DNA of 41,751 nucleotides from Saprospiraceae bacterium (lineage in GTDB: Bacteria; Bacteroidota; Bacteroidia; Chitinophagales; Saprospiraceae), in the NCBI GenBank assembly GCA_022844265.1, contig JALHMA010000004.1, forward strand, positions 15,182-56,932. Direction: 5' to 3'. The translations under genes and the position numbers were made by a program. The notes under the pieces were generated by a model. That model was not told the DNA's origin. It saw only the letters and a program-made list of their open reading frames with translations, and searched no databases. Positions within the stretch are counted from its first letter, which is position 1. Each line of letters starts with the position of its first letter. Below are positions 5,340 through 39,096 of the stretch, one piece after another.

Positions 5340-5433
5340 TAAGTAATCAGGCAAAATTAGTTTTGGCTAAATTATTTGTAAATGATTGATTATCAACACA
5401 AATAACCAATAACTAATAACGAATAACTACTTA
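5340..5433 (+). mobile_element. 94-nt TAATAAC element (MITE-like), copy 1
   Basis: This element runs from TAAGTAATCAGGC to AATAACTACTTA; its ends form a short inverted repeat, TAAGTA at both outer ends. The inner part carries TTATTTGTAAATG, TTGATTATCAACAC and then a run of ATAAC words (AATAACCAATAACTAATAAC). It is the same length as, and matches by eye at about 89 of 94 positions, the minus-strand copy at 16954-17047. It ends 17 bp before the start codon at 5451. Confidence 0.8.
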
Positions 5434-6098: not shown

Positions 6099-6121
6099 CC
6101 TCTTACTTAATTTCTTCATCC

Positions 6122-7234: not shown

Positions 7235-7282
7235 TCCCAACTATCCAAGCTCAACTTTATTATTCACATTCAATTAGTTATC

Positions 7283-7588
7283 GTGGAAACAACCGTACTT
7301 ACTTTCCTGCTTTTCATCCTGGTACTGGCTATTTTTCTGGGTGTCGAAATTATTTCCAAAGTGCCGTCCCTGTTGCACACGCCGCTGATGTCAGGTTCCA
7401 ATGCCATTTCAGGTATTACCGTTTTGGGGGCGATTTTAGCCGCAGGTTTGGCAAAGGGTGTTGGTAACAACGATTTTGCAGCCTTGCTGGGCGGAATTGC
7501 AGTCGCGCTGGCTATGATTAATGTGGTAGGCGGTTATTTTGTGACCGACCGCATGTTGGACATGTTCAAGAAAAAAGAAAAAAAATAA
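7283..7588 (+). CDS. pntAB: NAD(P) transhydrogenase alpha2 subunit (membrane)
   Basis: The protein has 101 residues with three to four hydrophobic helices: VLTFLLFILVLAIFLGVEII, the SGITVLGAILAAG segment and GGIAVALAMINVVGGYFV, ending in a lysine-rich tail (KKKEKK). This matches the membrane part of PntA (domain II, alpha side) as a separate polypeptide, as in Rhodospirillum-type split enzymes. The start is GTG at 7283, supported by the conserved N-terminal hydrophobic segment following immediately. It lies 48 bp after alpha1 and 9 bp before beta. Confidence 0.93.
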   Translation: METTVLTFLLFILVLAIFLGVEIISKVPSLLHTPLMSGSNAISGITVLGAILAAGLAKGVGNNDFAALLGGIAVALAMINVVGGYFVTDRMLDMFKKKEKK

Positions 7589-7597
7589 GCGCTCCTT

Positions 7598-8989: not shown

Positions 8990-9012
8990 TTTAAGTAAAA
9001 TATGAATTATCC

Positions 9013-9222
9013 CTAATTGAGTACTAAAAGACTGCGAAGCAGTCAAATCTAAGTGTTATACAACAACCGTAGAGTAATTTTACCACATAGACACATAGTT
9101 TTTACACATAGAACACATAGCGTAGAGTACTCTAAAAACTATGTGTTCTATGTGTAAAAACTATGTGTCTATGTGGTAAAATTACTCTACGGTTGTTGTA
9201 GAACACTTAGTACCCAAATTAG
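9013..9222. repeat. Long perfect palindrome, CACATAG family
   Basis: The core arms 9059-9120 and 9139-9200 are perfect reverse complements over 62 bp, separated by an 18-nt loop (CGTAGAGTACTCTAAAAA) that itself holds the palindrome TAGAGTACTCTA. The pairing continues outward to about 9013 and 9222 after one mismatch, except that the left side carries an extra small hairpin (GACTGC-GAA-GCAGTC, 9030-9044). Each arm is a string of ACACATAG-type words. It fills the space between two convergent genes (pntB and the amidohydrolase), where a bidirectional terminator would be expected. Confidence 0.9.
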
Positions 9223-9248
9223 AAAAGACTCATATTTGCCCTTTTTCC

Positions 9249-10547: not shown

Positions 10548-10608
10548 GGTAAAATTGCTTGTGAATAGTTTACTCCGGCCAAAGTAAACAGATAAACATG
10601 GATATTTC

Positions 10609-10616
10609 TACTTTTG
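10609..10616 (+). promoter_or_regulatory. -7 box of the methyltransferase gene
   Basis: TACTTTTG is an exact match to TAnnTTTG, followed by CCC. It lies 54 bp before the ATG at 10671; transcription would start inside the T-rich leader, which supports 10671 rather than 10614 as start codon. Confidence 0.55.
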
Positions 10617-10670
10617 CCCGTGCCGCATTTGTTGTTTGCTTTTTGCCAACTTGCTTTTTGTTTCTTCACT

Positions 10671-11411
10671 ATGTCCCTCTATCGAAAACTGCTGCTCCGG
10701 CTTTATCCTTATAAAACCCTTCACGATGATTATATTGCCCGCATGCGGAGTGCCATAGGCGGCGCAGGGATGTTGCACGATGGCAATATTTTTGCGTTTG
10801 ATTACGCGTTCCAGCGCCTTCCTCAAACCGGTGGAATACTGGAAATCGGCTCCTTTGCAGGATTGTCTGCAAATGTGATGACCTGGTTGCTGCGAAAACA
10901 CGGGATCAATCGCCCGTTTTTCACTTGTGACCCGTGGGTATATGAAGGTTATCACGACCCGACGCGCAAGGACGATGCGGTTTATATGGCCCATTTCGAG
11001 GCTTGCCGGCACATCACCCGGGATGATTTTAATGATTTTATCCGGGAAAGTTTCAGAAGGAACACACTCTTTTTCAGCCGCGAATACCTGCCGCATACCA
11101 TCCGGCTTTCTTCAGATGCCTTTTTTGATACCTGGCAAAAACAAGCGCGTAAAACGGATGTTTTTGGCCGAAAAGTCACTCTTGGTGGGCCACTATCTTT
11201 TGTATACGTCGATGGAGATCATTCCTACGAAGTGGCACGCCGAGATGTGGAGCACAGTCTGGAACACCTGGTTCCGGGCGGTTTTCTGCTGCTCGATGAT
11301 TCCGCTGATTTCTGGACATACGGCAGTGTGCAATTGGCGCAGGAAATGAAACGATGGAAAGGGCTGGAACTGGTCATGAAAAACCCCAACTACCTCTACC
11401 GAAAATTGTGA
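10671..11411 (+). CDS. Class I SAM-dependent methyltransferase (Methyltransf_24 type)
   Basis: The protein has 246 residues with a Rossmann methyltransferase fold. Motif I for S-adenosylmethionine is GGILEIGSFAGLSANV (54-69), the acidic motif II region is FFTCDPWVYEG, and VYVDGDHSYEVARRDV followed by LVPGGFLLLDDS matches the class that modifies sugars, antibiotics or lipids. The acceptor cannot be told. I use the ATG at 10671 because the segment before it is leader DNA downstream of a good -7 box. Its stop codon TGA (11409-11411) is part of the first unit of the GTGAGTGG palindrome that separates it from the convergent cyclase gene. Confidence 0.85.
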   Translation: MSLYRKLLLRLYPYKTLHDDYIARMRSAIGGAGMLHDGNIFAFDYAFQRLPQTGGILEIGSFAGLSANVMTWLLRKHGINRPFFTCDPWVYEGYHDPTRKDDAVYMAHFEACRHITRDDFNDFIRESFRRNTLFFSREYLPHTIRLSSDAFFDTWQKQARKTDVFGRKVTLGGPLSFVYVDGDHSYEVARRDVEHSLEHLVPGGFLLLDDSADFWTYGSVQLAQEMKRWKGLELVMKNPNYLYRKL

Positions 11412-11528
11412 GTGGTGAGTGGTGAATATTGAGTAGTGAGTGGCATATCGTTAGAGGAATATTGGGAATGTTCTTCTAACGATATGCCACTCACTATTCA
11501 CCACTCACCACTCACTACTCACCACTCA
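11408..11528. repeat. Long inverted repeat, GTGAGTGG family, overlapping two stop codons
   Basis: The left arm 11408-11455 and right arm 11475-11515 are perfect complements over 41 bp except that the left carries 7 extra bases (TTGAGTA). The inner end of the arms is CATATCGTTAGA and the loop is about 19 nt. The arms are strings of GTGAGTGG / GTGAATA words, and further words continue on the right into the end of the cyclase gene. Both convergent genes stop inside the repeat. Confidence 0.88.
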
Positions 11529-12767
11529 CAATTCACCACTCACATAATACATATCCACCTCCCCGATGTGTTTTGCCGGAAAACGTCCCCGGTAGACACA
11601 ATCGAACCGGTGGCGAATCAGTGCATGGGTTGCTTCTGAAATATTAATCATATCGGGTTCGCAGGCCTGTTCGATACGGGAAGCAATATTGACGGTTTCA
11701 CCCCAGATGTCGAATGCCATTTTAGTGCTGCCGACTACGCCTGCTACCACCGGGCCGGTGTGTATTCCGATTCGGATATCAAATGGGTAGTTATACTGTG
11801 ACATTTTGTTATCTCTGTGATTAACAACGAATTGTCTGATTTCCAAAGCGGCGCGTACCATATCGTGGGCATGACTATCCGTGAACGTAGGAATGCCGCC
11901 CACACACATGTAGCTATCGCCGATGGTTTTTATTTTCTCCAGACCGTAGCGCGTCATAATGTCGTCGAAAGCGCCGAAATAAAAGTCGATCTGTTCCACT
12001 AGTTCCTCGGCAGTCAGCGTGCGGGCAAAAGCGGAAAATCCGACAAAGTCCGTAAATAGCACCGTTGCCTGCTGGTAACTTTTGGCAGCCACCCGTCCGC
12101 GCTCTTTTAGTTCACGAGCGGTTTCATCGGGAAAAATATTGAGCAACAGCGTATTGGCAACCTGATGCTCTTCCCGGATCATGGCTAACAAAGAGGCTTT
12201 GTTTTTTAAAAAGCCTTCCATGAGGAAATAAGCCACTGTAGCGATAAATGCAAAATTGAATTCAAAAAAGAGCAGGTGTATTTCCGGAGGGAGGTTATTA
12301 GGGTTCGATCCGGCAACGTATTCCCAAATCCCTGCGGCAAATAGGGTAAACAGGTAGCAGAAAAAAGTGAGCCGTGCCGTATGTATTCCCGCGAACATCA
12401 GGGCGCCCAAAGGCGCTAAAAAAGCCGCCAGTACCACTCCGCTGCTCCCCACAAAACCGCCATGGGTAATTTGTGCGGCCAATGGCAGCGCTATTGTAAG
12501 CACCAATTGTGTATTCCGAAAAAAACGAAAATGCCCCTTGAGTTTAAAATAAGCCAGGTTAAGCAGTGTGGCGATCAGATAGATAGCAGTGGTCCACCAG
12601 GTGAAAGGCTGGCCGAAAAGAAAGTATGCCAGGTTGTAGGTGAAATCCAGCAGGGTAATCAACACAATGATCGTCAGCGCGAGGGTTCGATACTCGATTT
12701 CCTCAGCCGATAGGTGCTGGTAGCCGAAAAAGCGACTGAAGGTGTTTTTCAAACGAGCAGGTAACAT
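11526..12767 (-). CDS. Membrane-bound class III adenylate/guanylate cyclase
   Basis: The protein has 413 residues. The N-terminal half (about 25-187) holds six hydrophobic helices. A short coiled linker (REEHQVANTLLLNIFPDETARELKE) leads to a class III catalytic domain at about 228-410. Visible residues: metal-binding Asp in ATVLFTDFVGFS (D240) and in KTIGDSYMCVGG (D284), the purine-contacting Lys of EKIKTIGD, and FDIWGETVNIASRIE carrying the Asp of adenine-specific cyclases plus the transition-state Asn and Arg. It probably makes cAMP. The last five residues (VSGEL) and the stop are encoded by GTGAGTGG-type repeat DNA. A -7 box lies only four bases before the ATG (12772-12779, minus strand), which would give a nearly leaderless mRNA. 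Confidence 0.93.
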   Translation of the reverse strand: MLPARLKNTFSRFFGYQHLSAEEIEYRTLALTIIVLITLLDFTYNLAYFLFGQPFTWWTTAIYLIATLLNLAYFKLKGHFRFFRNTQLVLTIALPLAAQITHGGFVGSSGVVLAAFLAPLGALMFAGIHTARLTFFCYLFTLFAAGIWEYVAGSNPNNLPPEIHLLFFEFNFAFIATVAYFLMEGFLKNKASLLAMIREEHQVANTLLLNIFPDETARELKERGRVAAKSYQQATVLFTDFVGFSAFARTLTAEELVEQIDFYFGAFDDIMTRYGLEKIKTIGDSYMCVGGIPTFTDSHAHDMVRAALEIRQFVVNHRDNKMSQYNYPFDIRIGIHTGPVVAGVVGSTKMAFDIWGETVNIASRIEQACEPDMINISEATHALIRHRFDCVYRGRFPAKHIGEVDMYYVSGEL

Positions 12768-12771
12768 TGGG

Positions 12772-12779
12772 CAAACATA
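12772..12779 (-). promoter_or_regulatory. Possible -7 box of the cyclase gene, very close to ATG
   Basis: On the minus strand TATGTTTG matches TAnnTTTG exactly and is followed by CCCA and then the ATG. If used, transcription would start at or within a few bases of the start codon. An alternative is TAATATTG further upstream (one mismatch). Confidence 0.35.
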
Positions 12780-12794
12780 AGGAAAAGGGCAATA

Positions 12795-13175
12795 TTAACT
12801 TTCCTCTACTTCGTCTTCAATGTGGAAGCGATGGAAAATTCGGTGTGTTACCGGCGCTACGATGATACCGATGGCCGTGATAAAAACCACACCGCTTACC
12901 AATGCATAACAAGAGGCAAACCATTTGCCACTCGCTGTTTCGATGGGTGTTACCGGCCCCATACCGGACAGGATCATGGAGGCATTGAGCAGACTATCCA
13001 GCCAGGCTATATTACAGGTGTAGTGATAGCCTGTAACGCCTACGCCAAGAAATAGCAATATGATGAGTATACCTGCCAGCATACTTTTGAATAATCGATT
13101 GTAAAACAACCTTTTAGGAAGCAATTGCTGGTGCCTGGATTCGAAATGTAAAAGTCGATGTATCATAGGGAGCAA
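12795..13175 (-). CDS. Small two-helix membrane protein resembling a potassium-channel pore module
   Basis: The protein has 126 residues and two membrane helices (about 33-51 and 84-108). Between them, residues 58-75 (AWLDSLLNASMILSGMGP) have the length and layout of the pore helix and filter of two-TM potassium channels: an aromatic-acidic start, a small/hydrophobic helix, then a Gly-X-Gly. The canonical TVGYGD is replaced by LSGMGP. The second helix starts WFASCYALVSGVVF, where channels have W/G.. A...L.G. The tail is charged. Family membership is inference from this layout. The gene lies just upstream of the cyclase gene on the same strand (27 bp), so the two may form one unit. Confidence 0.75.
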   Translation of the reverse strand: MLPMIHRLLHFESRHQQLLPKRLFYNRLFKSMLAGILIILLFLGVGVTGYHYTCNIAWLDSLLNASMILSGMGPVTPIETASGKWFASCYALVSGVVFITAIGIIVAPVTHRIFHRFHIEDEVEES

Positions 13176-13190
13176 ATCATTAAGTTAAGG

Positions 13191-13198
13191 CAAAATTA
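13191..13198 (-). promoter_or_regulatory. -7 box of the channel-like gene
   Basis: The minus strand reads TAATTTTG, an exact match to TAnnTTTG, followed by CC. It lies 15 bp upstream of the ATG at 13173-13175 and touches the edge of the ATATTGGG inverted repeat. Confidence 0.5.
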
Positions 13199-13200
13199 TT

Positions 13201-13284
13201 GAGATATTAAAATATTGGGATATTCTATTGACAATCAATAATTTGAGTGATAATATCGCAATATCCCAATATCAATTAATATCG
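13201..13284. repeat. Inverted repeat, ATATTGGGATATT family
   Basis: AATATTGGGATATT on the left and its complement AATATCCCAATATC on the right form the centre of imperfect arms (13201-13224 and 13260-13284), rich in GATATT words. It occupies most of the 150-bp spacer between glpD and the channel-like gene on the minus strand. Confidence 0.7.
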
Positions 13285-13325
13285 TACTTGTTCTTAAAAA
13301 CTGTAAATCTATATTTGAACTGACC

Positions 13326-14972
13326 TTAAGCGTGTGTTTTGGATTTGAAAAATTCCAGCAGTGCCATGTATTCATCCGTTTGCCGCTGCATTTCAAGTGC
13401 CGACCAGCCCAATTCCCGTCCCATAAGTTGCGCTACAACCGGACTGGCAGCAAGCGTTTGCTGCCAGTCCGTGATTTCCAGCCGGATACGCCTTGCCAGG
13501 AAATCGCGCAGGGTGCAGGCCATTTCTTCCCGGACCGCATACACCACTTCGGCTTTCAGGAATGGGTAATGCGGCAAAATTCTATCCTTCCATTCGTTTT
13601 GTTCTTGTGCCAGCCGAGCCACCAGATGCGCACGCGCGCCGTATTTTTGGCTGAGGTGCAGGCAAATATCATAATCGAGGCCAAAGGTGGATTGCAGTTC
13701 TGACGCAAGTTGGGCGCTCCAGCCTGCTGCTCCGACCAGCAGGTGCGTTTCACTCCGGCATGTAGCGCTGATGCCCAGAATCTTGCAGGCAGTATCTATC
13801 GTGTCTTTTGCCATCAGCCGGTACGTGGTCCATTTGCCGCCGAGCAGGCTGAGCAACCCGGAACTGGAGTCATGTTCCACTTCGTGGTCGCGAAGCATTG
13901 TTTTGGTCATGGCGCCGTTGCTGTGGTAGATATTGGGCGCCAGCAAAGGCCGCAAACCGCCAAACCCGGCAGATACGTCCTTTTTGTCCACTTTTGCTGC
14001 CAGAAAGGGTTGAAGGGTTTCCAGGAGAAAGTCTATTTCGGCAGATTCCAGCACAGGCTCTTGTTCGGGATTGGGATACGGTTCATCCGTGGTTCCCAGT
14101 AGCAAGACACCTTCAAAAGGCACTGCAAAAACAACCCGGCCATCTTTTGTTTTAGGAATGAGCATGGCGTCGGTACTGTTCAGAACACCTGCTGGAAGCA
14201 CGGCATGAACGCCCTTGGATGGCCGGATACGCAGCCCCCGACCAGGGTTGGCCAGGCGCCTGATTTGATCCGCGCCGACGCCGGTGCAATTCACAAACAA
14301 CTTCGCGCGGATAAGAAAAGAATCCCCTTTGAGGGTGTCTAATACCTGTGCCGCCTCTATTTTTTGATGCGTATCTTTTTGAAAATCAACTACTTTTAGA
14401 TAATTTGCAACGCTTGCGCCTTGCTCGTCGGCGCTGTGCGCCAGCGCCAGGCAATAACGCGCGTCATCCAGTTGCCCGTCGAAATACAGTACGGCGCTAT
14501 GGATGTTGTGGCTGAGGCCGGGCATACGACGCAAGGCCTCTTTTTTTGAAAGCCAGCAACTTCTCGGCAGATGGTCTTTGCCGGATGCAAACCAGTCGTA
14601 GAGCCTCATGCCAATCCTGAAATACAAACCTTCCCACCAACTAAAAACAGGCGTAATCAGCCCCAGCGGCCTTGCCAGGTGCGGCGCGTTGGCGAGTATG
14701 ATGTGGCGTTCTTCCAGGCCGTGGCGCACCTGCCGGAGTTGTGCAAAATCCAGTCTTTTGAACGCCTGTTCCAGGTATCGCACGCCGCCATGCACCAATT
14801 TGGTGCTTTTGGAGGAGGTTTCCGCAGCGAAGTCGCTTTGATCTATCAATGCTACCCTCAATCCGCGCAAGGCGGCATCCAGGGCACAACCGGCGCCAGA
14901 TGCTCCGCCTCCGATAATGCAGAGGTCGAAATTTTCATGTTTTAAACGCCGGATATTTTCGTTGCGGTTCAT
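13326..14972 (-). CDS. glpD: Glycerol-3-phosphate dehydrogenase/oxidase (FAD)
   Basis: This enzyme oxidises sn-glycerol 3-phosphate to dihydroxyacetone phosphate at the membrane and passes electrons to the quinone pool (here probably menaquinone). The FAD-binding motif is CIIGGGASGAGCALDAALRG (18-37), followed by the family signature ETSSKSTKLVHGGVRYLE. Later landmarks are LLLGTTDEPYP and the SLLGGKWTTYRLMA segment before the C-terminal helical domain. The 548 residues are the expected length. It is flanked by inverted repeats or terminators on both sides and appears to be transcribed alone. Confidence 0.95.
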   Translation of the reverse strand: MNRNENIRRLKHENFDLCIIGGGASGAGCALDAALRGLRVALIDQSDFAAETSSKSTKLVHGGVRYLEQAFKRLDFAQLRQVRHGLEERHIILANAPHLARPLGLITPVFSWWEGLYFRIGMRLYDWFASGKDHLPRSCWLSKKEALRRMPGLSHNIHSAVLYFDGQLDDARYCLALAHSADEQGASVANYLKVVDFQKDTHQKIEAAQVLDTLKGDSFLIRAKLFVNCTGVGADQIRRLANPGRGLRIRPSKGVHAVLPAGVLNSTDAMLIPKTKDGRVVFAVPFEGVLLLGTTDEPYPNPEQEPVLESAEIDFLLETLQPFLAAKVDKKDVSAGFGGLRPLLAPNIYHSNGAMTKTMLRDHEVEHDSSSGLLSLLGGKWTTYRLMAKDTIDTACKILGISATCRSETHLLVGAAGWSAQLASELQSTFGLDYDICLHLSQKYGARAHLVARLAQEQNEWKDRILPHYPFLKAEVVYAVREEMACTLRDFLARRIRLEITDWQQTLAASPVVAQLMGRELGWSALEMQRQTDEYMALLEFFKSKTHA

Positions 14973-15038
14973 GGTGCGTGGATCTTACAATAATCGTTCC
15001 TTTTGGTTTCAGGCACAAAAAATGCGAGGTGAAAAGAG

Positions 15039-15074
15039 AACGGGTCAACCAATGTTTATCTTGGATGACCCGTT
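15039..15074 (-). terminator. Hairpin terminator downstream of the small DNA-binding protein
   Basis: AACGGGTCA (15039-15047) pairs with TGACCCGTT (15066-15074). The stem continues after one mismatch with CCAA/TTGG, leaving an 8-nt loop. On the minus strand it is followed by CTCTTTTC. It lies between the 84-residue gene and glpD, both on the minus strand. Confidence 0.65.
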
Positions 15075-15119
15075 CAAAAGAATTGTTGATAAGAACGACA
15101 ACGTTTGTGTTTGTCTGCT

Positions 15120-15374
15120 TTAATGTATACTTCTGTGCTCGTTCAGAATATGTTGAGCATGTTCAAGAATAGTAGTGTCTTCTAAATGTACAATGCCGCC
15201 GTTCGGACCGGGTTCAAGATGAAATTCCACCACTTCTCCGTCTTTGTATTGTTGTGCGCCAAAATAATTGCGTACCGTTTGCTCCTCAAGACTCAGGTCT
15301 TGTGCGATTCTTGAGATGCTTCCACTTGGAAGCGCGTGCTTAATACGGCGTAATTCTTCAAATGTAATGTTCAT
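15120..15374 (-). CDS. Small helix-turn-helix-like DNA-binding protein
   Basis: The protein has 84 residues from the ATG at 15372-15374; an upstream in-frame ATG at 15470 would add a segment unlike protein. The N-terminal half MNITFEELRRIKHALPSGSI, then ISRIAQDLSLEEQTVRNYF reads as a helix-turn-helix: alternating helix, the A-x-x-L-x-x-x-x-x-T-V-R pattern of a recognition helix. The C-terminal half has a short beta segment (GEVVEFHLEPGPNGGIVHLE) and a final helix. Small proteins of this type are common in Bacteroidota as presumed regulators; target genes are unknown. Confidence 0.75.
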   Translation of the reverse strand: MNITFEELRRIKHALPSGSISRIAQDLSLEEQTVRNYFGAQQYKDGEVVEFHLEPGPNGGIVHLEDTTILEHAQHILNEHRSIH

Positions 15375-15641
15375 AATCCTAAAAGTTTGGTGAACAATAT
15401 AATTTCTAAGGCAACAGGATTTGCCCCGAAAAGTTTCCCTAAGGTATGCGTATTGCCAAAGAAAAAACAAGAAAATGATTTGAAAAATTTTGCGGACGCC
15501 TGCTTTTTATCGGGGCTTTTTGGCGACGTATGTGAATCGTGAACAGATTTGCTGGAGGCATAAGCGCGATATCGGGCAGAACTATATCCGAAAAACGATT
15601 ATTTCACGTTTATTGCCTTTTTCACGGCGGCGAAAAGGCCC

Positions 15642-15649
15642 TACCTTTG
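15642..15649 (+). promoter_or_regulatory. -7 box of the glycosyltransferase gene
   Basis: TACCTTTG matches TAnnTTTG exactly and is followed by CC; TTTT stands near the expected -33 position (15619-15622). The mRNA would carry a leader of about 130 nt that includes the whole TAATAAC element. Confidence 0.55.
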
Positions 15650-15688
15650 CCGTATTAAACCACATTTTTAAAGCGACTCGATAACCGG

Positions 15689-15780
15689 TAAGTATATCAG
15701 GCAAAATAGTTTAGATTTAATTCTTTGCAAATGCTTGATGTTGAGCTCGGATAACCAATAACTAATAACGGATAACAACC
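15689..15780 (+). mobile_element. TAATAAC-family element, copy 2 (diverged)
   Basis: Begins TAAGTATATCAGGCAAAAT, then TTCTTTGCAAATGCTTGAT, and ends in ATAACCAATAACTAATAACG. It aligns with the element at 5340 in its first part and with those at 38915-39094 in its second. It ends just before the start codon of the glycosyltransferase (15784). Confidence 0.7.
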
Positions 15781-15783
15781 CAT

Positions 15784-16917
15784 ATGTTTTTGCACATTGT
15801 TTCTTTTGATATTCCATATCCTGCCAACTATGGCGGGGTGATCGTTATTTTTAATCAGATCAAGGCACTCCAGCAGCAGGGTGTAAAAGTGATTTTACAT
15901 TGTTTTCAGTATGGCGACCGCAAGCCGCAGCAGGAACTGGAACGTTATTGCCACGAGGTACACTATTACAAACGCAGCCGCTCTATTTATTATCAATTGA
16001 GCCTTTTACCTTTCATCATGCGCACCCGGGAAAACAGCAATTTGTTGAAAAGACTGCGCAAAGACAACCATCCCATTCTTTTTGAAGGAATGCACACTGC
16101 TGCTTATGTCTGGCACAAAAAACTGCGCGGACGCCAAAAGATCGTACGGATGCACAATGTGGAGTGGCAATATTATGAAAACCTCTCGCGCCTTACTCCG
16201 CCTTCCGAACCCTTGGAAAAAACCTATTACTTCGTGGAAAGTATAAAACTCCAGCGCATCGAGCCAAAAGTGGTGTTACATACGGACGAGATTATCACTT
16301 TGTCGACCAACGATGCCAACTATTACCGCGAAATAAAGGCCAATACACATTATATCCCCGCTTTTCACCCCAATGCAGCGGTGGAAAGTCAAATCGGCCG
16401 GGGTGAATATGTCCTCTTTCACGGGAAATTAAGCGTGCCCGACAACGACCAGGCAGCCACCTGGCTGATTGAGGAGGTTTTTTCTAAAATTGATATCCCG
16501 TTTATCATTGCAGGCATGGAACCAACCGGTGGACTGCGTGACCTGGTGCAGCGCTATGAACATATTCAATTGATCGAAAACCCCGACGAACGCCGGATGA
16601 ATGAACTGATCTCTTCGGCACACATCAATTTGCTCGTTTCCTTCCAATCGGCGGGTATCAAACTCAAGTTGATCAATGCCTTGTTCCGCGGACGTTTTTG
16701 TGTGGTAAACAAACTGATGATAAGCGGCACCGGGCTTGCCGAATTGTGTTATGTGCGCAATTCAGCCGCAGCGATCCGCCAGACGATAGAAGCGCTCATC
16801 AATGCGCCATTCGAACGGAGCAGGGTAGAGGAGCGGCGAACGCTGCTTGAAACCGAGTTTTCCAATGAACGCAATGCAAAGAAACTGATGGAAATTATCA
16901 AGTTTCAGGATGGGTGA
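15784..16917 (+). CDS. GT-B glycosyltransferase (family 4-like)
   Basis: The protein has 377 residues without signal peptide. The N-terminal Rossmann-like half starts FLHIVSFDIPYPANYGGVIV, with the glycine-rich acceptor loop, and includes VRMHNVEWQYYENLSR, the His-containing segment typical of these enzymes. The C-terminal half starts YVLFHGKLSVPDN and contains FIIAGMEPTGG and the donor-binding region MNELISSAHINLLVSF, followed by GIKLKLINALFRGRFCVVN, the position of the E-x7-E-like loop. It probably transfers a sugar to a lipid or polysaccharide; donor and acceptor are unknown. It stands alone, with repeat elements on both sides. Confidence 0.88.
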   Translation: MFLHIVSFDIPYPANYGGVIVIFNQIKALQQQGVKVILHCFQYGDRKPQQELERYCHEVHYYKRSRSIYYQLSLLPFIMRTRENSNLLKRLRKDNHPILFEGMHTAAYVWHKKLRGRQKIVRMHNVEWQYYENLSRLTPPSEPLEKTYYFVESIKLQRIEPKVVLHTDEIITLSTNDANYYREIKANTHYIPAFHPNAAVESQIGRGEYVLFHGKLSVPDNDQAATWLIEEVFSKIDIPFIIAGMEPTGGLRDLVQRYEHIQLIENPDERRMNELISSAHINLLVSFQSAGIKLKLINALFRGRFCVVNKLMISGTGLAELCYVRNSAAAIRQTIEALINAPFERSRVEERRTLLETEFSNERNAKKLMEIIKFQDG

Positions 16918-16924
16918 GGGGTTT

Positions 16925-17116
16925 TACCACATAGTTCACATAGGACTACCACATAAGTAGTTATTGGTTATTCGTTATTGGTTATTCGTGTTGATAATCA
17001 ATTATTTACAAATAATTTAGCCAAAACTAATTTTGCTTGATTACTTAGATCACATAGATTTTAGTGTACTCTACGCTATGTGATCTATGTGGTAGTCCTA
17101 TGTGAACTATGTGGTA
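16925..17116. repeat. CACATAG palindrome interrupted by an inserted TAATAAC element
   Basis: The right arm 17076-17116 (41 bp) is a perfect complement of 16925-16955 joined to 17048-17057. The 92 bases between those two pieces are a TAATAAC element. The 18-nt loop at 17058-17075 is, on the minus strand, CGTAGAGTACACTAAAAT, matching the loop of the palindrome at 9121-9138 at 16 of 18 bases. It lies between the glycosyltransferase and mqnE. Confidence 0.9.
16954..17047 (-). mobile_element. 94-nt TAATAAC element (MITE-like), copy 3, nested insertion
   Basis: Read on the minus strand it runs TAAGTAATCAAGC to AATAACTACTTA, 94 nt including one TA at each end. By eye it differs from the copy at 5340-5433 at five positions. 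Removing 92 nt (the element plus one TA) restores a perfect CACATAG palindrome, so the boundaries are defined to the base. A TA duplication is the target signature of IS630/Tc1-mariner-type transposition; no transposase is present. Confidence 0.85.
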
Positions 17117-17218
17117 AACCCCCAAAATTTAATTTTCAAAAAAAATTGAAAGTTATGAACAATACCCTTTGACATGGGTTTACATGACAGTATCAAATTT
17201 TCAAATTCAAATCATTTT

Positions 17219-18421
17219 ATGCGCAGCGCGGAACAAATAGACATACTGCTCCAGGATTCGAAATTAAGTGCCGATCATCGCCAGGTAGCACAGAAAGTAC
17301 TTGATAATCAGCGGGTTACTTTCGATGAGGGCGTTTTTTTGTTTGAACATGGCGATTTGTCTTTTGTAGGCGCATTGGCCAATTATGTGCGGGAGCGGAA
17401 AAATGGCGACCAGACCTTTTTCAATCGCAATTTCCACATCGAGCCGACCAACCTGTGTGTGTACGACTGCAAATTTTGTTCGTATTCCCGCCTCATCAAG
17501 CAGCGCAACGATGCCAATGCCTGGGCTTTTTCCATGGAAGAAATGCTGGACATGGTGTATAAATACGACGGAAAACCGGTGACGGAAGTCCATATCGTCG
17601 GAGGCGTTCTGCCGCAATACGATCTGCCGTTTTACCTCGATTTTTTCAAAAAAATAAAGGAACACCGCCCGGAACTACATGTGAAGGCGCTGACGCCGGT
17701 GGAATATCACTACATCTTTAAAAAGGCCAAAGTGAGCTATGAAGATGGGATGCGCATGATGAAAGAAGCAGGTCTGGACAGTATGCCCGGCGGCGGCGCG
17801 GAGATTTTTCACCCGGAAATAAGGGAACAAATTGCAGCTGACAAATGTGATGCCGATCAGTGGTTGCGCATCCATGAAATCTGGCACGAACTGGGTATGC
17901 GCTCGAATGCTACTATACTGTATGGTCACATCGAACAATTCCGGCACCGGGTCGATCATATGGAGCGTTTGCGCCAATTGCAGGACAAAACGGGTGGTTT
18001 CCAGACCTTTATCCCGCTGAAATTCCGCAATCAGGATAACCAGATGAGCCATATTGCCGAAAGCACCGCGGTGGAAGACCTGCGGAATTACGCCATCAGC
18101 CGCATCTATTTGGACAATTTTGACCACCTCAAAACCTACTGGCCGATGATCGGTCGCCAGATTGCACAGATGTCGCTGGCATTCGGCGTAGATGATATGG
18201 ATGGCACCATCGATGATACGACCAAAATATACTCGATGGCCGGTTCGGAAGAGCAACACCCGACCCTGACCACCCAGCAATTGGTCGATATGATTCGCCG
18301 GGTAGGTCGCCGCCCCATCGAGCGGGATACGCTGTACAACGTGTTAAACGATTTTACGGATACCGTTTTTGAAGAAGACAAGGCATTTCGGGGTTATGTT
18401 GAGCTGCCTGTTCTTTCTTGA
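17219..18421 (+). CDS. mqnE: Aminofutalosine synthase MqnE (radical SAM)
   Basis: This radical SAM enzyme joins 3-(1-carboxyvinyloxy)benzoate to S-adenosylmethionine to give aminofutalosine, the second step of the futalosine route to menaquinone. The cluster-binding cysteines are in LCVYDCKFCSYS (C80, C84, C87, the CxxxCxxC pattern). Landmarks include HIVGGVLPQYDL, KALTPVEYHYIFKKA, GLDSMPGGGAEIFH and FIPLKFRNQDNQMSH. I prefer the ATG at 17219 (400 residues), which fits family length; an upstream in-frame ATG at 17174 would add 15 residues and lies within three bases of a TACCC-TTTG motif (17163-17171) that may be the promoter. The stop is one base before the palindrome at 18422. It precedes a phosphatase gene and mqnA on the same strand. 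Confidence 0.95.
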   Translation: MRSAEQIDILLQDSKLSADHRQVAQKVLDNQRVTFDEGVFLFEHGDLSFVGALANYVRERKNGDQTFFNRNFHIEPTNLCVYDCKFCSYSRLIKQRNDANAWAFSMEEMLDMVYKYDGKPVTEVHIVGGVLPQYDLPFYLDFFKKIKEHRPELHVKALTPVEYHYIFKKAKVSYEDGMRMMKEAGLDSMPGGGAEIFHPEIREQIAADKCDADQWLRIHEIWHELGMRSNATILYGHIEQFRHRVDHMERLRQLQDKTGGFQTFIPLKFRNQDNQMSHIAESTAVEDLRNYAISRIYLDNFDHLKTYWPMIGRQIAQMSLAFGVDDMDGTIDDTTKIYSMAGSEEQHPTLTTQQLVDMIRRVGRRPIERDTLYNVLNDFTDTVFEEDKAFRGYVELPVLS

Positions 18422-18527
18422 GTTATTGGTTATTGGTTATTCGTTATTGGTGTGGTAACCATTGGCCACACAAATAACTCAAACCAAAAGTGACCACACC
18501 AATAACAAATAACAAATAACTAATAAC
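18422..18527. repeat. Inverted repeat of ATAAC words filling the mqnE-phosphatase spacer
   Basis: The arms 18422-18456 and 18493-18527 pair at about 32 of 35 bases. Left arm: GTTATTGGTTATTGG and so on, ending GGTGTGGT; right arm: ACCACACCAATAAC followed by ATAAC words. It begins directly after the mqnE stop and ends seven bases before the next ATG. It lacks the TTGATTAT core of the 94-nt element, so only the repeated words are shared. Confidence 0.85.
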
Positions 18528-18533
18528 GAACAC

Positions 18534-19163
18534 ATGACGCTTTACATCCTCCGCCACGGAGAAACAGAATTCAATCGCCTGCAGATCGTGCAGGGTAGCG
18601 GGGTGGATTCTGATCTGAACGATACCGGCCACGAACAGGCACACGCTTTTTTTGAAACGTACCAGGATATTGATTTTCAATTGGTTGTCACGTCCAAATT
18701 GCGTCGCACCCATCAAACCGTGCGGCGTTTTCTGGATAAAAACATCCCCTGGATCGAAACACCCGACATCAACGAAATCAGTTGGGGTAAACACGAGGGA
18801 CTGCCCTCCACACCGGAACGCATCGCTTTGCATGCCGAAATGATCAATCATTGGAAACAGGGTAATTTTGATGCTTCTCTGCCGGACGGTGAAACGGCTG
18901 CCCAGCTCCGGGCGCGGGTTGATCGCTTTCTGGAATGGCTCAGAAAAAGGCCGGAAGAATATATCCTGATTGCCACCCACGGCCGTACCCTGCGCTGCCT
19001 TATTACGGCGCTGAAGGGCCTTGGGCCTGCCGATATGGAGGGCACATTTCATTCCAATACCGGATTGTATGTCATTCATTATCAGGATAATAAGTTTGTT
19101 TTTGAAAAGGAAAACGATACCGGCCACTTAGAGCGAATGCTTAAAGCAAGTGCCAGTGCATAG
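18534..19163 (+). CDS. Histidine phosphatase family protein
   Basis: The protein has 209 residues and is a phosphoglycerate-mutase-like phosphatase. The phosphohistidine motif is LYILRHGETEFNR at the N-terminus; EISWGKHEGLP carries the acidic catalytic residue; PDGETAAQLRARV and ILIATHGRTLRCL carry the second catalytic His. All residues needed for phosphatase activity are visible; the substrate (phosphosugar, nucleotide or protein) is not. Its place between mqnE and mqnA, 17 bp before mqnA, suggests co-transcription with mqnA, but no phosphatase step is known to me in the futalosine pathway. Confidence 0.9.
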   Translation: MTLYILRHGETEFNRLQIVQGSGVDSDLNDTGHEQAHAFFETYQDIDFQLVVTSKLRRTHQTVRRFLDKNIPWIETPDINEISWGKHEGLPSTPERIALHAEMINHWKQGNFDASLPDGETAAQLRARVDRFLEWLRKRPEEYILIATHGRTLRCLITALKGLGPADMEGTFHSNTGLYVIHYQDNKFVFEKENDTGHLERMLKASASA

Positions 19164-19179
19164 ATAACAGCCTTGAAAC

Positions 19180-19974
19180 ATGAAGGACAAAAAAATTCGG
19201 CTGAGCGCCGTGAGTTACCTGAATACCAAGCCATTTATTTACGGTTTGTTTCGCAGCGAAATGGCCGATGAAATGGAACTGAGCCTGGATATTCCTTCTG
19301 TGTGCGCGCGAAAATTATTGCAGGGAGAAGTTGATCTGGCGCTTACGCCGGTGGCGATCATCCCTGAATTACCTCAGGCATTTCTGGTTTCTGATTATTG
19401 TATAGGTTCAGTAGGGGCGGTAAAAACAGTCTGCCTGTTTTCTGAAAAACCGCTTACAGAGATCAAAAGGATATTACTGGATTTTCATTCCAGGACCTCC
19501 GTTGCACTTACCCGTATACTATGTGAACAGTACTGGCATATCCAGCCGGAATTTGTGCCGGCAGTGGAAGGTTTTGAAACGCAGATCACCGGCGAAACAG
19601 CAGCGCTGGTTATCGGCGACAGAACCATCGGCCTGGAACACCGCTTCCCATTTGTATATGATCTCGGGGAAGCATGGACAGCCTGGACGGGGCTGCCTTT
19701 CGTTTATGCCGCATGGGTAAGCACCAGGCCTCTGGAACCGGAAGTGATTGGGCGTTTTAATGCCGCACTTGCCACGGGTCTGGATCACCTGCCGGAACTC
19801 ATCAAAATTCTGCCTAACATGCCGGGTTTCGATCTGGAAAAATACTACCGCGAGAACATCAGTTATGAACTGGATCAGGCCAAGTGGCTGGCATTGAACC
19901 GTTTTCTGCAACTCCTGGCCGGTGAAAACGGTTACCATTTGCAGCGGCAAAATGTTGCGATGGCGACAGTTTAG
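19180..19974 (+). CDS. mqnA: Chorismate dehydratase MqnA
   Basis: MqnA dehydrates chorismate to 3-(1-carboxyvinyloxy)benzoate, the first step of futalosine-dependent menaquinone synthesis, and the product is the substrate of MqnE upstream. The N-terminus IRLSAVSYLNTKPFIYGL is the family signature. GEVDLALTPVAIIPEL, ALVIGDRTIGLEH and the FVYDLGEAWTAWTGLPFVYA segment belong to its periplasmic-binding-protein-like fold. The length of 264 residues is normal. Together with mqnE this shows that the host uses menaquinone made from chorismate via futalosine; the remaining steps (MqnB, C, D) are not in the window. Confidence 0.95.
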   Translation: MKDKKIRLSAVSYLNTKPFIYGLFRSEMADEMELSLDIPSVCARKLLQGEVDLALTPVAIIPELPQAFLVSDYCIGSVGAVKTVCLFSEKPLTEIKRILLDFHSRTSVALTRILCEQYWHIQPEFVPAVEGFETQITGETAALVIGDRTIGLEHRFPFVYDLGEAWTAWTGLPFVYAAWVSTRPLEPEVIGRFNAALATGLDHLPELIKILPNMPGFDLEKYYRENISYELDQAKWLALNRFLQLLAGENGYHLQRQNVAMATV

Positions 19975-20034
19975 CCGTACTGTGCGGTATTTCAAAACCA
20001 AAATGCAGCAATACGCGTTTGTTTTTACATAAAA

Positions 20035-20703
20035 ATGTCGTCCATGAAATACAAATTCATCTTGTTGGCGATGATCGCCACAACAGGTGTATCCGCACAA
20101 ACAACAACATCAGAAAAAGTAACTACCATGACTACAACATCCCAATCCGACATACAGACGACCACGCCTTCCGGCCAAACTGAAATTGCAACCCTTGGTG
20201 CGGGCTGCTTCTGGTGTGTGGAAACCATTTATCAGGATCTTCAAGGTGTATCGAAAGTAGAAAGCGGCTACTCCGGCGGTCGTGTCGACAACCCGACGTA
20301 TGACGCCGTTTGCTCCGGTACAACCGGGCACGCTGAGGTGATTCAGGTGACGTTCGATCCGGCTGTTATTACGTTCAGGGAAATACTGGAAGTGTTTTTT
20401 ACCGTACATGACCCGACCACGCTGAATCGCCAGGGCAATGACGTTGGGACGCAATACCGATCCGTCATCTATTACCATTCCAAGTTACAAAAAACTGTGG
20501 CTGAAGAAGTTAAAGAGGCTTCGAAAGAAATCTGGGATAATCCGATTGTCACTGAAATCAGCGCTTTTGATAAGTTTTATAAAGCCGAAACGTACCACCA
20601 AAACTATTACAAAACCAATCCGAATCAGGGCTACTGCTCTATTGTGATTGCACCCAAGGTGAAAAAGTTCAGGCAGAAATGGGCGCACAAGTTGAAATCG
20701 TAG
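20035..20703 (+). CDS. msrA: Exported peptide-methionine (S)-S-oxide reductase
   Basis: MsrA reduces methionine S-sulfoxide in proteins. The catalytic motif is GAGCFWCVE, with the nucleophilic cysteine at residue 58, and GYSGGRVDNPTYDAVCSGTT and RSVIYYH are family segments. The C-terminal NQGYCSIVIAPKVKKFR holds a probable resolving cysteine. An N-terminal signal peptide (MKYKFILLAMIATTGVSAQ, from the second Met at 20044) is followed by a Thr/Ser-rich linker, so the enzyme is exported and would protect periplasmic or surface proteins. An intrinsic terminator follows at 20706. No MsrB is fused or adjacent. Confidence 0.94.
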   Translation: MSSMKYKFILLAMIATTGVSAQTTTSEKVTTMTTTSQSDIQTTTPSGQTEIATLGAGCFWCVETIYQDLQGVSKVESGYSGGRVDNPTYDAVCSGTTGHAEVIQVTFDPAVITFREILEVFFTVHDPTTLNRQGNDVGTQYRSVIYYHSKLQKTVAEEVKEASKEIWDNPIVTEISAFDKFYKAETYHQNYYKTNPNQGYCSIVIAPKVKKFRQKWAHKLKS

Positions 20704-20705
20704 CG

Positions 20706-20749
20706 CCGAACCCTGTTCGGCCGCTTTTTTCACTCCGAACAGGGTTCGG
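20706..20749 (+). terminator. Intrinsic terminator with duplicated hairpin
   Basis: CCGAACCCTGTTCGG (20706-20720) forms a 6-bp stem with a 3-nt loop and is followed by TTTTTT (20725-20730). A second copy in the opposite orientation, CCGAACAGGGTTCGG, lies at 20735-20749, so the two can also pair over 15 bp. It follows the msrA stop. Confidence 0.8.
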
Positions 20750-20785
20750 AGGTACATTTACTCAACAATTCCGCCTTTTCGTGGT

Positions 20786-20793
20786 TATCTTTG
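20786..20793 (+). promoter_or_regulatory. -7 box of the NifU-like gene
   Basis: TATCTTTG is an exact match to TAnnTTTG, followed by CA. It is 16 bp before the ATG at 20810, just downstream of the msrA terminator. Confidence 0.55.
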
Positions 20794-20809
20794 CACGAAA
20801 TTATAGAAA

Positions 20810-21061
20810 ATGACCGACCGACAGCAAATGCTTGACAGAATTGAAGATGCATTGAGTACCGTTCGCCCGCACCTGCGGGTAGATGGAGGAGATGTGGAAT
20901 TTGTGGAATTGACAGATGATATGCACGTCAAAATACGCTGGAAAGGCATGTGCGAATCCTGCACCATGTCCGCCATGACTTTGCGGGCCGGCATCCAGGA
21001 AACTATTCGCAGCAAAATCCCGGAAATTGTCGGGGTGGAAGCGATCAACGGATTACGGTAA
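20810..21061 (+). CDS. NifU-type iron-sulfur scaffold domain protein
   Basis: The protein has 83 residues and consists only of the NifU C-terminal (Nfu) domain, which carries a Fe-S cluster to target enzymes. LRVDGGDVEFVELTDD is the family start, and KGMCESCTMSAMTL holds the CxxC cluster ligands (C48, C51). Stand-alone Nfu proteins of this length are common in Bacteroidota. The adjacent radical SAM enzyme MqnE needs a 4Fe-4S cluster, but a direct link is only inference. Confidence 0.93.
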   Translation: MTDRQQMLDRIEDALSTVRPHLRVDGGDVEFVELTDDMHVKIRWKGMCESCTMSAMTLRAGIQETIRSKIPEIVGVEAINGLR

Positions 21062-21083
21062 TTGCCCCAATGGTTTTGATGGT

Positions 21084-21131
21084 AGATGCTTGATTATCGG
21101 CACTAATAACGAATAACTGATAACGAACAAC
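21084..21131 (+). repeat. Partial TAATAAC-family element
   Basis: AGATGCTTGATTATCGGCAC is followed by TAATAACGAATAACTGATAACG. It corresponds to the second half of the TAATAAC element. It sits between the NifU-like gene and the convergent HhH outer membrane protein gene (ends 21135). Confidence 0.65.
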
Positions 21132-21134
21132 CAC

Positions 21135-23189
21135 TCACCATCTCATACGCACCTGTAGTTTCCAGAACAGTCTTTTCCCGGTTACACCGGAACTTGTTAC
21201 GGCTTGAAGTTGGTTCGTTCGTTCGGCGCGCCCTTCGAGCCGTAACCATTTATTGACGCGCCAGCTCAGGTTGAGGTAGGCCCGCGACCCGCGACCTGAC
21301 AGGGCAGGGATCGAGATGGCGGAGAAAAGATCAGTTTCAAACGCAAAAACCCGGGTATCGAAGTTGTCGGTATCATACACCGCATACCGCACAGTAGCAG
21401 TCACCGGAAAACTGAGGGGTTTAATGGCGGCCTCCTGGTAGGCAATAAAACCATTGTTGCGCGGACCATCCTGTACAGTAAACGTGGTCCACTCGATACG
21501 GCTGCGAAATTCGACCCCCGGACTCACTTTGTAAGCAGCATGCAGTCGCAGGCGTTCGCGGCGGTTTTCCCGCAATCCAAAAACGCCTTCCACATCGCTG
21601 TCGCGTTCTTTTGTTTCCGCCTGCCAAAGCGCATAGGCAGAAAAATTCCTGCTTTTGGTCCAGATGAGCCGGGCCAGAAACTCGCGGCCCCGTGAAGGTG
21701 CGCTCACCCCGAATCGCAGCCAGGGATGTTGCCAAATATCTGCATAAACATTTAACTGCCACCGCCTTACATAACGAATATCGGCGCCGAGATAAAGTCC
21801 GCGTTCGTTCGAGGCGCCGGTTACTTCTGCAAAAGGGGCACCATAAACGGACTGATAATCTTTCCCCAGGGAACGGTGTACAGCCGTCAGGGTAATATGC
21901 TGATCGGGAGAGAGCAGCAGGCCGTTGACGGCGGCCATGCCGCCATTGTCGCTGCGGGCAGTTTCTCCAAAGAGCAGGAAGTTGCGAAAGCGCCAGTTAT
22001 AGTCGAGGCTGGCCCCGGTCAGCGATTGTCCCTGAAAAACGAAGCGGCGGTAGGCCGCAGGCAAAGGCGACAGGGTTTTGTCATATCTGATATAAAGTCC
22101 GTTGGCGGTGATTTGCCCGTTTTTCCAGTTGAATGCCGTCGAAACCCCGGCCACCTGTTCATGCAGGGCTTTTTCATCCTCCACTTCGCCCGGCGTGCGA
22201 TGCAGCCCGGAGGTTTGCAGGGACGTAAATTCAATTTCAGATGATTCCAGGTCGATCGAATCGGGTACTACCACATTGCCGTCGCGGCGGCGGTTGGAGT
22301 ACAGGGCTGTGACTTCCACGTTTTTGTTGATAGCAATGGTTGTGGCCGCGCCCCTGAAAAAAAACGCTTCGCCAAATGCACCGTAAGCGTTCAATTTGCG
22401 ACCGCCGCGTGTGACCGAGACTGTTTCTGCCGATTTGCCAGGCGCAAATCCGGTTTGAAGCAATACGCCCTGGCCAAACCGAGCCGAATAATCACCTAAA
22501 GCGATGGTTTTAACCGTGCTGTTGAGGTTTTGCAGAAACAGGTGGGCGCTGTAAAAATCGAATCCCTGCCGGTTGCTGCCAAAAAAAAGCGCTTCACCGG
22601 GGTCGTTTTCTGCGGTGAAGCCAAAGCGCAGCCGATTGTCGTAGGTATGCCGGTAACGCAAAGCCAGGTTGTATGGGCGGCCTTCTACGTTATCGGAAGG
22701 GTAATTGGGCGGTTGCGGCGCGCCCCAGCGGAGCAACGCTTCATTGTCGCCTTTGTAAAGACCTTCGAGCAAGTTGGTGTTGCGCGCGTCGAGTCCGCTG
22801 CGAATCCGGGTAAAATTGAGCATCCGCCGGATATCGGATATTTCCCAGCCCGGGATGGCCTGGAGTTCGTATTCATTAAGAAAAGGCCCGAATTGTGTCC
22901 TGTAAGTGAGAAAACTTTCAATTTGCAGGTTATTCAACAGGTGCAGGCCCAGCAAATCATCCCTGCTGATCGTATTGAGGTTGAGCGGCCTGTTGCGCCA
23001 GTTTTCCAGGTTTTCGAGGTATTGCAACGCATCTGACTCGGAGGCCGTTTCGTTATCGCGGAAAAAGTTTTCCAGCAATTCAGCAGTAACGGGGTCGTCT
23101 GTTTGCGCTTCTACCAATACTACTGTGGTGCAGCAAAGCAGTAGAGTCAGGAAAAAACGGGCAAGAGCAGGAAGTATTATTTTTCTCAT
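21135..23189 (-). CDS. Helix-hairpin-helix outer membrane protein
   Basis: The 684 residues start with a signal peptide (MRKIILPALARFFLTLLLCC, ending VEAQ). Residues about 45-130 contain two helix-hairpin-helix motifs of the ComEA type (NRPLNLNTISRDDLLGLHLL and FLNEYELQAIPGWEISDIRR). The remaining 550 residues are rich in alternating aromatic and polar beta strands and end in KLQVRMRW, a beta-barrel C-terminal signature. This layout is common in Bacteroidota, where the function is unknown; the HhH part need not bind DNA at this location. It is a single gene flanked by a convergent neighbour and by the CACATAG-type repeat upstream. Confidence 0.85.
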   Translation of the reverse strand: MRKIILPALARFFLTLLLCCTTVVLVEAQTDDPVTAELLENFFRDNETASESDALQYLENLENWRNRPLNLNTISRDDLLGLHLLNNLQIESFLTYRTQFGPFLNEYELQAIPGWEISDIRRMLNFTRIRSGLDARNTNLLEGLYKGDNEALLRWGAPQPPNYPSDNVEGRPYNLALRYRHTYDNRLRFGFTAENDPGEALFFGSNRQGFDFYSAHLFLQNLNSTVKTIALGDYSARFGQGVLLQTGFAPGKSAETVSVTRGGRKLNAYGAFGEAFFFRGAATTIAINKNVEVTALYSNRRRDGNVVVPDSIDLESSEIEFTSLQTSGLHRTPGEVEDEKALHEQVAGVSTAFNWKNGQITANGLYIRYDKTLSPLPAAYRRFVFQGQSLTGASLDYNWRFRNFLLFGETARSDNGGMAAVNGLLLSPDQHITLTAVHRSLGKDYQSVYGAPFAEVTGASNERGLYLGADIRYVRRWQLNVYADIWQHPWLRFGVSAPSRGREFLARLIWTKSRNFSAYALWQAETKERDSDVEGVFGLRENRRERLRLHAAYKVSPGVEFRSRIEWTTFTVQDGPRNNGFIAYQEAAIKPLSFPVTATVRYAVYDTDNFDTRVFAFETDLFSAISIPALSGRGSRAYLNLSWRVNKWLRLEGRAERTNQLQAVTSSGVTGKRLFWKLQVRMRW

Positions 23190-31569: not shown

Positions 31570-31573
31570 GTTG

Positions 31574-38914: not shown

Positions 38915-39094
38915 GTAGTTATCGGTTATTAGTTATTGGTTATCAGTGTTCATAATCAAGCATTTGTAAAGAACTAAATCTTATATATTTTGCCTGAAAT
39001 TCTTAAATAAGTGTGTAAAATTAGCCTTGCTCAAATTCTTTACAAATGCTTGATTATGAACACTAATAACCAATAACTAATAACCGATAACTAC
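38915..39094. mobile_element. Two TAATAAC elements head to head, forming a 59-bp-arm palindrome
   Basis: The arms 38915-38973 and 39036-39094 are complements at 58 of 59 bases. The common words are GTAGTTATCGG, TTATTAGTTATTGG, GTGTTCATAATCAAGCAT. Between them lie the AT-rich inner parts of the two elements (GGCAAAATATATAAG on the minus strand of the left copy). It fills the spacer between the small exported protein and the M1-like gene, ending two bases before its ATG. Confidence 0.88.
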
Positions 39095-39096
39095 TA

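Follow-up and report, generated by a model that had tools for sequence, protein, structure and literature searches.

A 94-nt unit that is bounded by TA on both sides, carries no transposase gene and interrupts a CACATAG palindrome raises the question of how it came to lie there, and what moved it. The unit is part of a 41,751-nt stretch of Saprospiraceae bacterium DNA, hereafter called the window. In our reading, to which we assign a probability of nearly nine in ten, it is an IS630-type MITE that inserted with duplication of TA and is specific to its lineage.

The interrupted palindrome and its empty site

The unit, a non-autonomous element located at 16954..17047 on the plus strand, was defined by its letters, an empty site, end sharpness and a deletion scan. 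Its first letters are TAAGTAG and its last TTACTTA, and the duplicated TA occupies 16954..16955 and 17046..17047. The left end consists of the terminal tag TAAGTAG (16954..16960, plus strand), recognized by left-end pattern counts, end conservation and comparison with plasmid IS630s, and of an array of four TTATTNG heptamers evident in the letters (16961..16988, plus strand). The right end forms a putative IS630-like terminal repeat of subfamily A, TAAGTAATCAAGCAAAATTAG..., on the minus strand at 17022..17047, resembling IS630 ends of plasmids and, weakly, those of the genus. The two ends of this 94-nt form have only TAAGTA(G) in common; other members of the family carry heptamer arrays at both ends.

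The deletion scan placed the outer portion of the left palindrome arm at 16923..16955, the remainder of this interrupted arm at 17048..17057 and the right arm at 17076..17118. Perfect arms extend over 33 bp with the insert kept and over 43 bp after taking out 16956-17047. A preliminary description, which had recognized the TA-bounded unit inside the palindrome from the letters alone, was hence right that removal of 92 nt restores the palindrome, with the arm length corrected from 41 to 43 bp. Arms of at least 35 bp resulted from 13 of the 8165 combinations of deletion length and start tried, all starting at the insert site (seven of 101 nt, three of 92 nt, and one each of 83, 126 and 130 nt), and only the 92-nt deletion matches the length of the unit.

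Window positions 2000-21900 were aligned to three relatives of the same genus (G048, G015 and G043), and four sites were read. At the position of the unit, the CACATAG palindrome of G048 is uninterrupted and has one TA, compared with two around the window unit, whereas G015 and G043 contain neither palindrome nor unit. Therefore, the palindrome is older and the unit inserted later with TA duplication, in agreement with the order of events and the type of target duplication proposed before; exact loss of the unit in G048 is a less likely explanation. The arms of the G048 palindrome (contig C325, L166) are perfect over 46 bp, those of the window (16923-17118) over 43 bp with the insert ignored, and their sequences differ between the species. 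Since both are perfect despite these differences, palindrome arms seem to change together, as in template-switch correction.

Further copies are present in the window. The inverted copy reported at 5340..5433 (minus strand) was recovered by BLAST and profile as a second full-length copy with 95% identity; G015 and G043 lack the unit there and G048 has other sequence. An older, decayed copy at 15689..15779 (minus strand; alignment and profile) is missing in all three relatives. An inverted pair detected by profile consists of a copy at 39005..39095 (minus strand), whose heptamer end adjoins the ATG at 39097 according to ORF calls, and a partner at 38915..38982 (plus strand) with its heptamer end close to the end of the upstream ORF. 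A partial copy was found by profile at 21076..21135 (minus strand). A related form at 18421..18528, identified by alignment, has heptamer arrays on both sides of a different core; G043 is empty at this site, and G048 and G015 contain other heptamer structures. Three loci elsewhere in the genome were read likewise: at L183:13226 the unit is missing in all three relatives with diverged flanks, at L184:8775 G048 retains a truncated remnant and G015 and G043 lack the unit, and at L184:1458 it is missing in G048, the sole relative aligned there, within a larger length change. Looking for empty sites in relatives, as had been suggested, thus yielded one that is fully clean among seven sites read, that of the window unit in G048.

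Other repeats in these regions also have a period of seven. Intergenic palindromes at window positions 11404-11544 and 31571-31682 have arms made of heptamer runs (GTGAGTG, TTTAGTG), indicating that this period recurs in unrelated repeats of the genome. The G048 sequence corresponding to window site 18421 (L167, near 440-700) combines two heptamer families in one intergenic region, with TTATCAG heptamers in the left arm and ACTCACA units in the right arm reaching a start codon. A further CACATAG palindrome at 9050-9209 has the ends TAAGTGTTATACAAC.../...CACTTA with a TAAGTG tag and TA at both edges, and may be another element of the same end type.

A family with sharp ends close to genes

The genome of the window (G000) is a 6.05-Mb draft of 561 contigs, 95% complete. 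Searching it with the unit, as the preliminary description had advised, gave at least 41 BLAST matches (40 of 476 first-look candidates scored), far more than chance would give. Allowing one mismatch, the left-end pattern TAAGTAGTTATYNGTTATYNG was counted at 250 places in this genome and its reversed control at none. Including G000, six of 42 genomes of the genus (five of the 41 others) contain the pattern, with 135 places in G048, 37 in G015, five in G043, three in G046 and one in G021, and it is absent from the remaining 36; high numbers are limited to three of the 42. The only match of the reversed control across the 42 genomes also fell in G021, so the lone left end there means little. BLAST of the unit in 40 relatives additionally returned heptamer-only matches, for instance 29 in G021.

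A profile built from 16 full-length seeds was used to search the window and 95 loci of its genome, identifying 124 unique copies, of which 74 are left-complete and 64 right-complete. Conservation stops at TA on either side of the unit: the first left column holds 1.65 bits compared with 0.15 just outside, and the last right column 1.57 compared with 0.16, figures biased in that 58 of the 96 searched sequences were chosen by the left-end pattern and the cut-offs favor intact ends. Among the 49 copies of the window and of loci selected by BLAST, TA was present at 26 of 41 left edges and 31 of 42 right edges, after profile matches that stopped close to an edge had been extrapolated to it. Left ends have the heptamer consensus TTATYNG, the array constituting one end of the element, and contain four units in 55 of 71 counted cases (range 1-6). 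Loose string rules sort the right ends into 28 ACACCTACTTA-like (subfamily B), 24 TTGATTACTTA-like (subfamily A, including the window copy) and 20 others. At four loci (L138, L140, L141, L143) the common ends flank a different core, and each end carries a heptamer array; membership of the family thus seems to depend on the ends and not on the core.

The core pattern was found in 46 public stretches, a number that may leave out records of the window's own genome. The largest group, 14, belongs to the MAG Saprospiraceae bacterium SJ208, whose copies have heptamers and family ends, one of them (L099) with 11 heptamer units, which makes a Saprospiraceae-like host likely. Short contigs of a MAG called Cyclobacteriaceae (L081, L098) hold copies close to both subfamilies, either because the element is shared between families or because the bin is contaminated. 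Bacteroides, Prevotella and other Bacteroidota (L071, L074, L097, L104 and others) contain the 22-nt core TTGATAATCAATCATTTACAAA as well, with neither heptamers nor TAAGTAG ends and several times shortly upstream of a reading frame; it is either a more widespread motif or a product of chance in AT-rich sequence. Heptamer arrays of the element are themselves interrupted at three loci (L110, L115, L142) by another palindromic family (TAC-ATAGTCGCC... / ...GACATAGTA), whose arms contain roughly heptameric GAGTATY runs. Element copies at L025, L031 and L055, as well as an IS630 (L174), adjoin a repeat TTAACYCAAG(C/T)TGTGACCTAT that looks like a shared landing place.

To locate copies relative to genes, a script was used to call ORFs that begin with ATG and span 100 codons or more in the fetched loci. 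Only three of 110 copies with a left end overlap an ORF. Both neighbors were called for 93 copies; in 51 of these the heptamer end is no more than 10 nt from an ORF boundary, and in five the other end (sign test, 49 versus 3, p = 5e-12), compared with an average of 16.7 and a maximum of 26 for random TA sites of the same regions in 200 rounds. This nearness holds whether the boundary is a start or a stop codon, and for each of the four gene arrangements. In eight cases the TAA of the element itself serves as stop codon, and in seven of these the flanking base gives a native TAA or TAG. Insertion beside a reading frame spares promoters and terminators, a reason for the closeness though not for the orientation; our guess is that the heptamer end survives best beside genes as a harmless or useful leader. 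The sequence TTTG-N19-21-TAnnTTTG, which we take to be a promoter motif, points outward in 11 of 77 copies and inward in none (shuffled mean 0.16). As most copies do not contain it, an outward promoter was dropped as the function of the element. A hairpin function was likewise rejected: the single-stranded unit (95 nt folded) shows no excess folding over shuffles (z -0.87 and -0.63). Rfam at gathering scores gave no match in the window.

These data bear on an account without transposition, in which slippage would create and lengthen heptamer arrays locally at ORF ends and intergenic recombination would spread the core. The hugging of ORF ends by heptamers, the existence of arrays of 11 units and the different heptamer structures of related genomes at 18421-18528 would fit such local growth. 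It does not account for a complete unit within an unrelated palindrome that is intact in G048 with one TA less, nor for sharp ends on both sides or an end sequence common with IS630 elements (see below), and we consider it very unlikely.

IS630 ends in the genus and on plasmids

The window genome was searched with the transposase profiles PF13358, Y1_Tnp, PF13586 and PF01609. PF13358 (DDE_3, IS630) had no match in this 95% complete draft, and no cognate IS630 was found there. A cognate IS630 in the same genome is usual for MITEs, yet it is not strictly needed, as MITEs can outlive a lost partner. Across the genus, PF13358 matches 13 of 42 genomes. Presence of IS630 and of the element do not coincide: G015 and G043 have no IS630, and G008 has 25 without a left-end match.

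The other profiles did yield candidates for a different mover. Three Y1_Tnp matches, together with the GTAG inside the TAAGTAG tag, would suit a REP-like repeat spread by a RAYT (Y1_Tnp, IS200-like) with GTAG as REP tag. None of the three loci contains two adjacent heptamers of this kind; two lie among other repeats and the third at a contig start, and at none of the three is a RAYT gene flanked by the unit. Moreover, the unit folds no better than its shuffles, and the TA duplication apparent from the comparison with G048 is, to our knowledge, not expected of the Y1_Tnp/IS200-like class, making this origin extremely unlikely. Two Y1_Tnp genes (L059, L060) adjoin GCCCTGAAAGGGC repeats, which likely constitute a separate REP-like system. 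One gene was matched by both PF13586 and PF01609, which would allow a TA-inserting transposase of another family (e.g., IS5/IS427-like) to move the unit. We give this idea very little credence, given that the IS5-type locus has no heptamer array but one bare TAAGTA hexamer, and that IS630 ends already match.

IS630s with such ends are indeed present in two relatives, G046 and G021, with TAAGTAG ends that align with the commoner right end of the family, subfamily B. The G046 element (L172) has the ends TAAGTTC.../TAAGTAGGTGTTCAAGATTG, in full TAAGTTCTTTGACAGG and TAAGTAGGTGTTCAAG, and is located at the TA of one TTATTAG heptamer within an array; the G021 element (L174) has the ends TAAGTTC.../TAAGTAGTGGAACAAG, with the left end in full TAAGTTCATTGACAAG. 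Both are matched by NCBIfam IS630, although one half of the split G046 gene, the first, scores below the cut-off; comparison of their second frames gave 66% identity. The right 60 nt of each subfamily were aligned to 20 ends of 10 IS630s and scored against 500 shuffles. Subfamily B aligned best to the right ends of G046 (z 6.2, 0/500 shuffles) and G021 (z 4.7, 1/500), in an alignment extending into the 3' end of the transposase gene, compared with a z of at most 3.2 for the other 18 ends. For subfamily A, to which the window copy belongs, the match to these two right ends is weak (z 1.9 and 2.9), and the best of the 20 ends is one of another type at L181 (z 3.2). In a plain 26-nt comparison, B scores 19 at the G046 end and shuffled queries reach 18 somewhere in that locus; the score still counts because its best place is the element end itself. 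The seven best of 3317 TA-ending windows from 12 IS630 loci lie between 4 nt inside and 14 nt outside the right ends of L172 and L174. Of the right-complete copies, 43 of 72 match these two right ends best and 29 prefer other ends. The left end has about 11 nt in common with the best IS630 end and then differs.

Among the 10 other IS630 loci of the genus fetched, seven (L171, L173, L175-L178, L181) have quite different ends and two (L180, L182) no clear pair. An intermediate case is L179, an IS630 of G044 with the ends TAAGTATG/TGAGTATG, which matches right end B at 17 of 26 positions (0/2000 shuffles). Because the best repeat at its ends begins 4 nt farther inward, it was not counted as having the same end type.

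Plasmids of other genera provided a second comparison. From 531 records with a tblastn match, six of the 20 matches listed were taken (H1, H2, H3, H5, H8, H9), representing IS630s of Runella, Oscillatoria, Nostoc, Cylindrospermopsis, Rippkaea and Hymenobacter. The ends taken start with TAAGT, once with TAAGC; for Nostoc and Hymenobacter, the pair starting with TAAGT was used in preference to an equally scoring one that begins 4 nt farther inward. Against all 12 ends, right end B matches at 15-21 of 26 positions (a score reached by 0-7 of 2000 shuffles), right end A at 16-22 (by 0-13 of 2000) and the left end at 13-19 (0-59 of 2000), compared with null means of 8.3-10.0. The Hymenobacter ends do not contain the CAAAATTAA part. 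Searching plasmids with the window unit itself gave two matches of just 30 nt of heptamers each (Euhalothece, Salmonella). A scan of viral contigs with one part of the G046 transposase found no relative, and the exact three-heptamer left-end pattern occurs in no viral contig, on which ground a viral vehicle for the element was rejected.

Given the similarity of its ends to IS630s of the genus and of plasmids from other genera, the IS630 idea holds at the level of sequence. The suspicion that IS630 might be the mover is accordingly backed by terminal sequences of two genus and six plasmid elements, and IS630s with such ends, which it had been suggested to look for, were found in G046 and G021 but not in the window's own assembly. 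In the mechanism we propose, a transposase of this IS630 subgroup would have moved the unit, the partner IS630 being predicted to have TAAGTAGG...GCAAAATTA ends. The present lineage may have lost the transposase, or its gene may lie in the unassembled part. The right ~50 nt of the family would go back to the 3' end of an IS630 of this kind, and the heptamer units may grow and shrink by slippage, with 1-6 units in the window genome and 11 in SJ208.

Heptamer arrays beyond the genus

Scanning the Rippkaea and Cylindrospermopsis plasmid stretches for IS630-type ends identified, by its ends alone, a 122-bp MITE in Rippkaea pP880101 (L222:976-1097). Over 26 nt, its left end does not differ from that of an IS630 on the same plasmid, and, judging from the sequences, the two are a direct case of element and partner together. 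The core of this MITE has a period of seven, with 30 matches at lag 7 and 14-20 at other lags from 3 to 12, and its best window was reached by 3 of 2000 shuffles at any lag from 4 to 11. BLAST with the Rippkaea MITE and two of its matches, some listed matches being the same records or left out, added 15 loci, resulting in 16 with Rippkaea. Ten of these have two ends 91-129 bp apart, each matching the Cylindrospermopsis end at 14 or more of 26 positions, and six do not. In the ten two-ended loci, the lag-7 value was equaled by at most 8 of 1000 shuffles in seven, by 14 in Sphaerospermopsis, by 45 in TIOX110 b and by 420 in Tolypothrix un4; as the matches are related and were sought with array-bearing queries, they represent one family and not ten independent cases. 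Planktothrix p4 and p2 carry (GGGAACA)3 and (GGGAACA)6, respectively, between identical right ends and similar left ends. Saprospiraceae and Cyanobacteria are thus apparently two lineages with two heptamers, and in both the array lies inside one end.

Plain arrays were also considered. TAACNRA arrays of at least two units were sought in 187 kb of plasmid stretches and six ~3-kb loci, two of them overlapping these stretches, and only one was found (L223:32434). As there is no TAAGT end beside this array, a MITE origin of cyanobacterial TAACTGA arrays finds no direct support in these sequences. A heptamer array in Euhalothece pEu3 (L229) is located close to an annotated start codon, without a TAAGT tag.

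Small MITEs of this type have precedents. ERIC and Correia elements insert at TA and, like Nezha, are small MITEs that can be likened to the window unit by description only. Our cyanobacterial MITEs may be Nezha or its kin; ISNpu3-like elements are the proposed mover of Nezha (PMC3049150). RUP of Streptococcus pneumoniae, an AT-rich element of ~107 bp with 110 copies, target duplication and ends similar to IS630-Spn1 (PMC3049150), resembles the window family as a short AT-rich MITE with IS630-like ends. It differs in that S. pneumoniae commonly carries the IS630 with matching ends, whereas none was found in the window genome; the word “heptamer” does not occur in that paper (PMC3049150). BrickBuilt of Porphyromonas gingivalis, with 19 copies at 49-591 nt from genes, is likewise a Bacteroidota MITE holding a tandem array between leader and tail (PMC4596501). 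Its minisatellite unit is 23 nt long, unlike ours, its target duplications are not uniform, and neither “IS630” nor “heptamer” appears in the text (PMC4596501).

For the TAACTGA arrays of Beggiatoaceae, Cyanobacteria and Bacteroidetes, the report describing them found no transfer mechanism evident (MacGregor 2015, PMC4679880). On the reverse strand, the heptamers of the window family belong to the same class (TAACNRA), and the Beggiatoaceae arrays lie mostly just upstream of start codons; they are plain arrays, however, whereas the heptamers described here are one end of a TA-inserting unit (PMC4679880). TAACTGA is also reported from the MITE-rich genome of Thiomargarita, where it was not found in the repeat consensus sequences (PMC4853749). 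No paper tying heptamer arrays to IS630 MITEs was found among the top-listed papers of the openly accessible literature, a scope outside which most subscription papers fall. IS630-type MITEs are a known kind of element, and the heptamer-array end, the orientation rule and the cyanobacterial parallel were not found in the literature searched.

We tentatively propose, although we consider it rather doubtful, that in at least two phyla intergenic heptamer arrays are both made and carried by one IS630 subgroup with TAAGY...CAAAATTAA ends. The array would lie just inside one MITE end, as TTATYNG in Saprospiraceae and GGGAACA in Cyanobacteria, and TAACTGA arrays and the cyanobacterial STRR heptamers would in part be its expanded or decayed remains, kept by ORF ends through an action on translation or mRNA. 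A heptamer-ended MITE gives such arrays a testable origin and a route of transfer, and the orientation of the heptamer end toward the closest ORF boundary, whether a start or a stop, is a strong and measurable rule. The family may help to explain the source of puzzling seven-letter repeats in bacteria.
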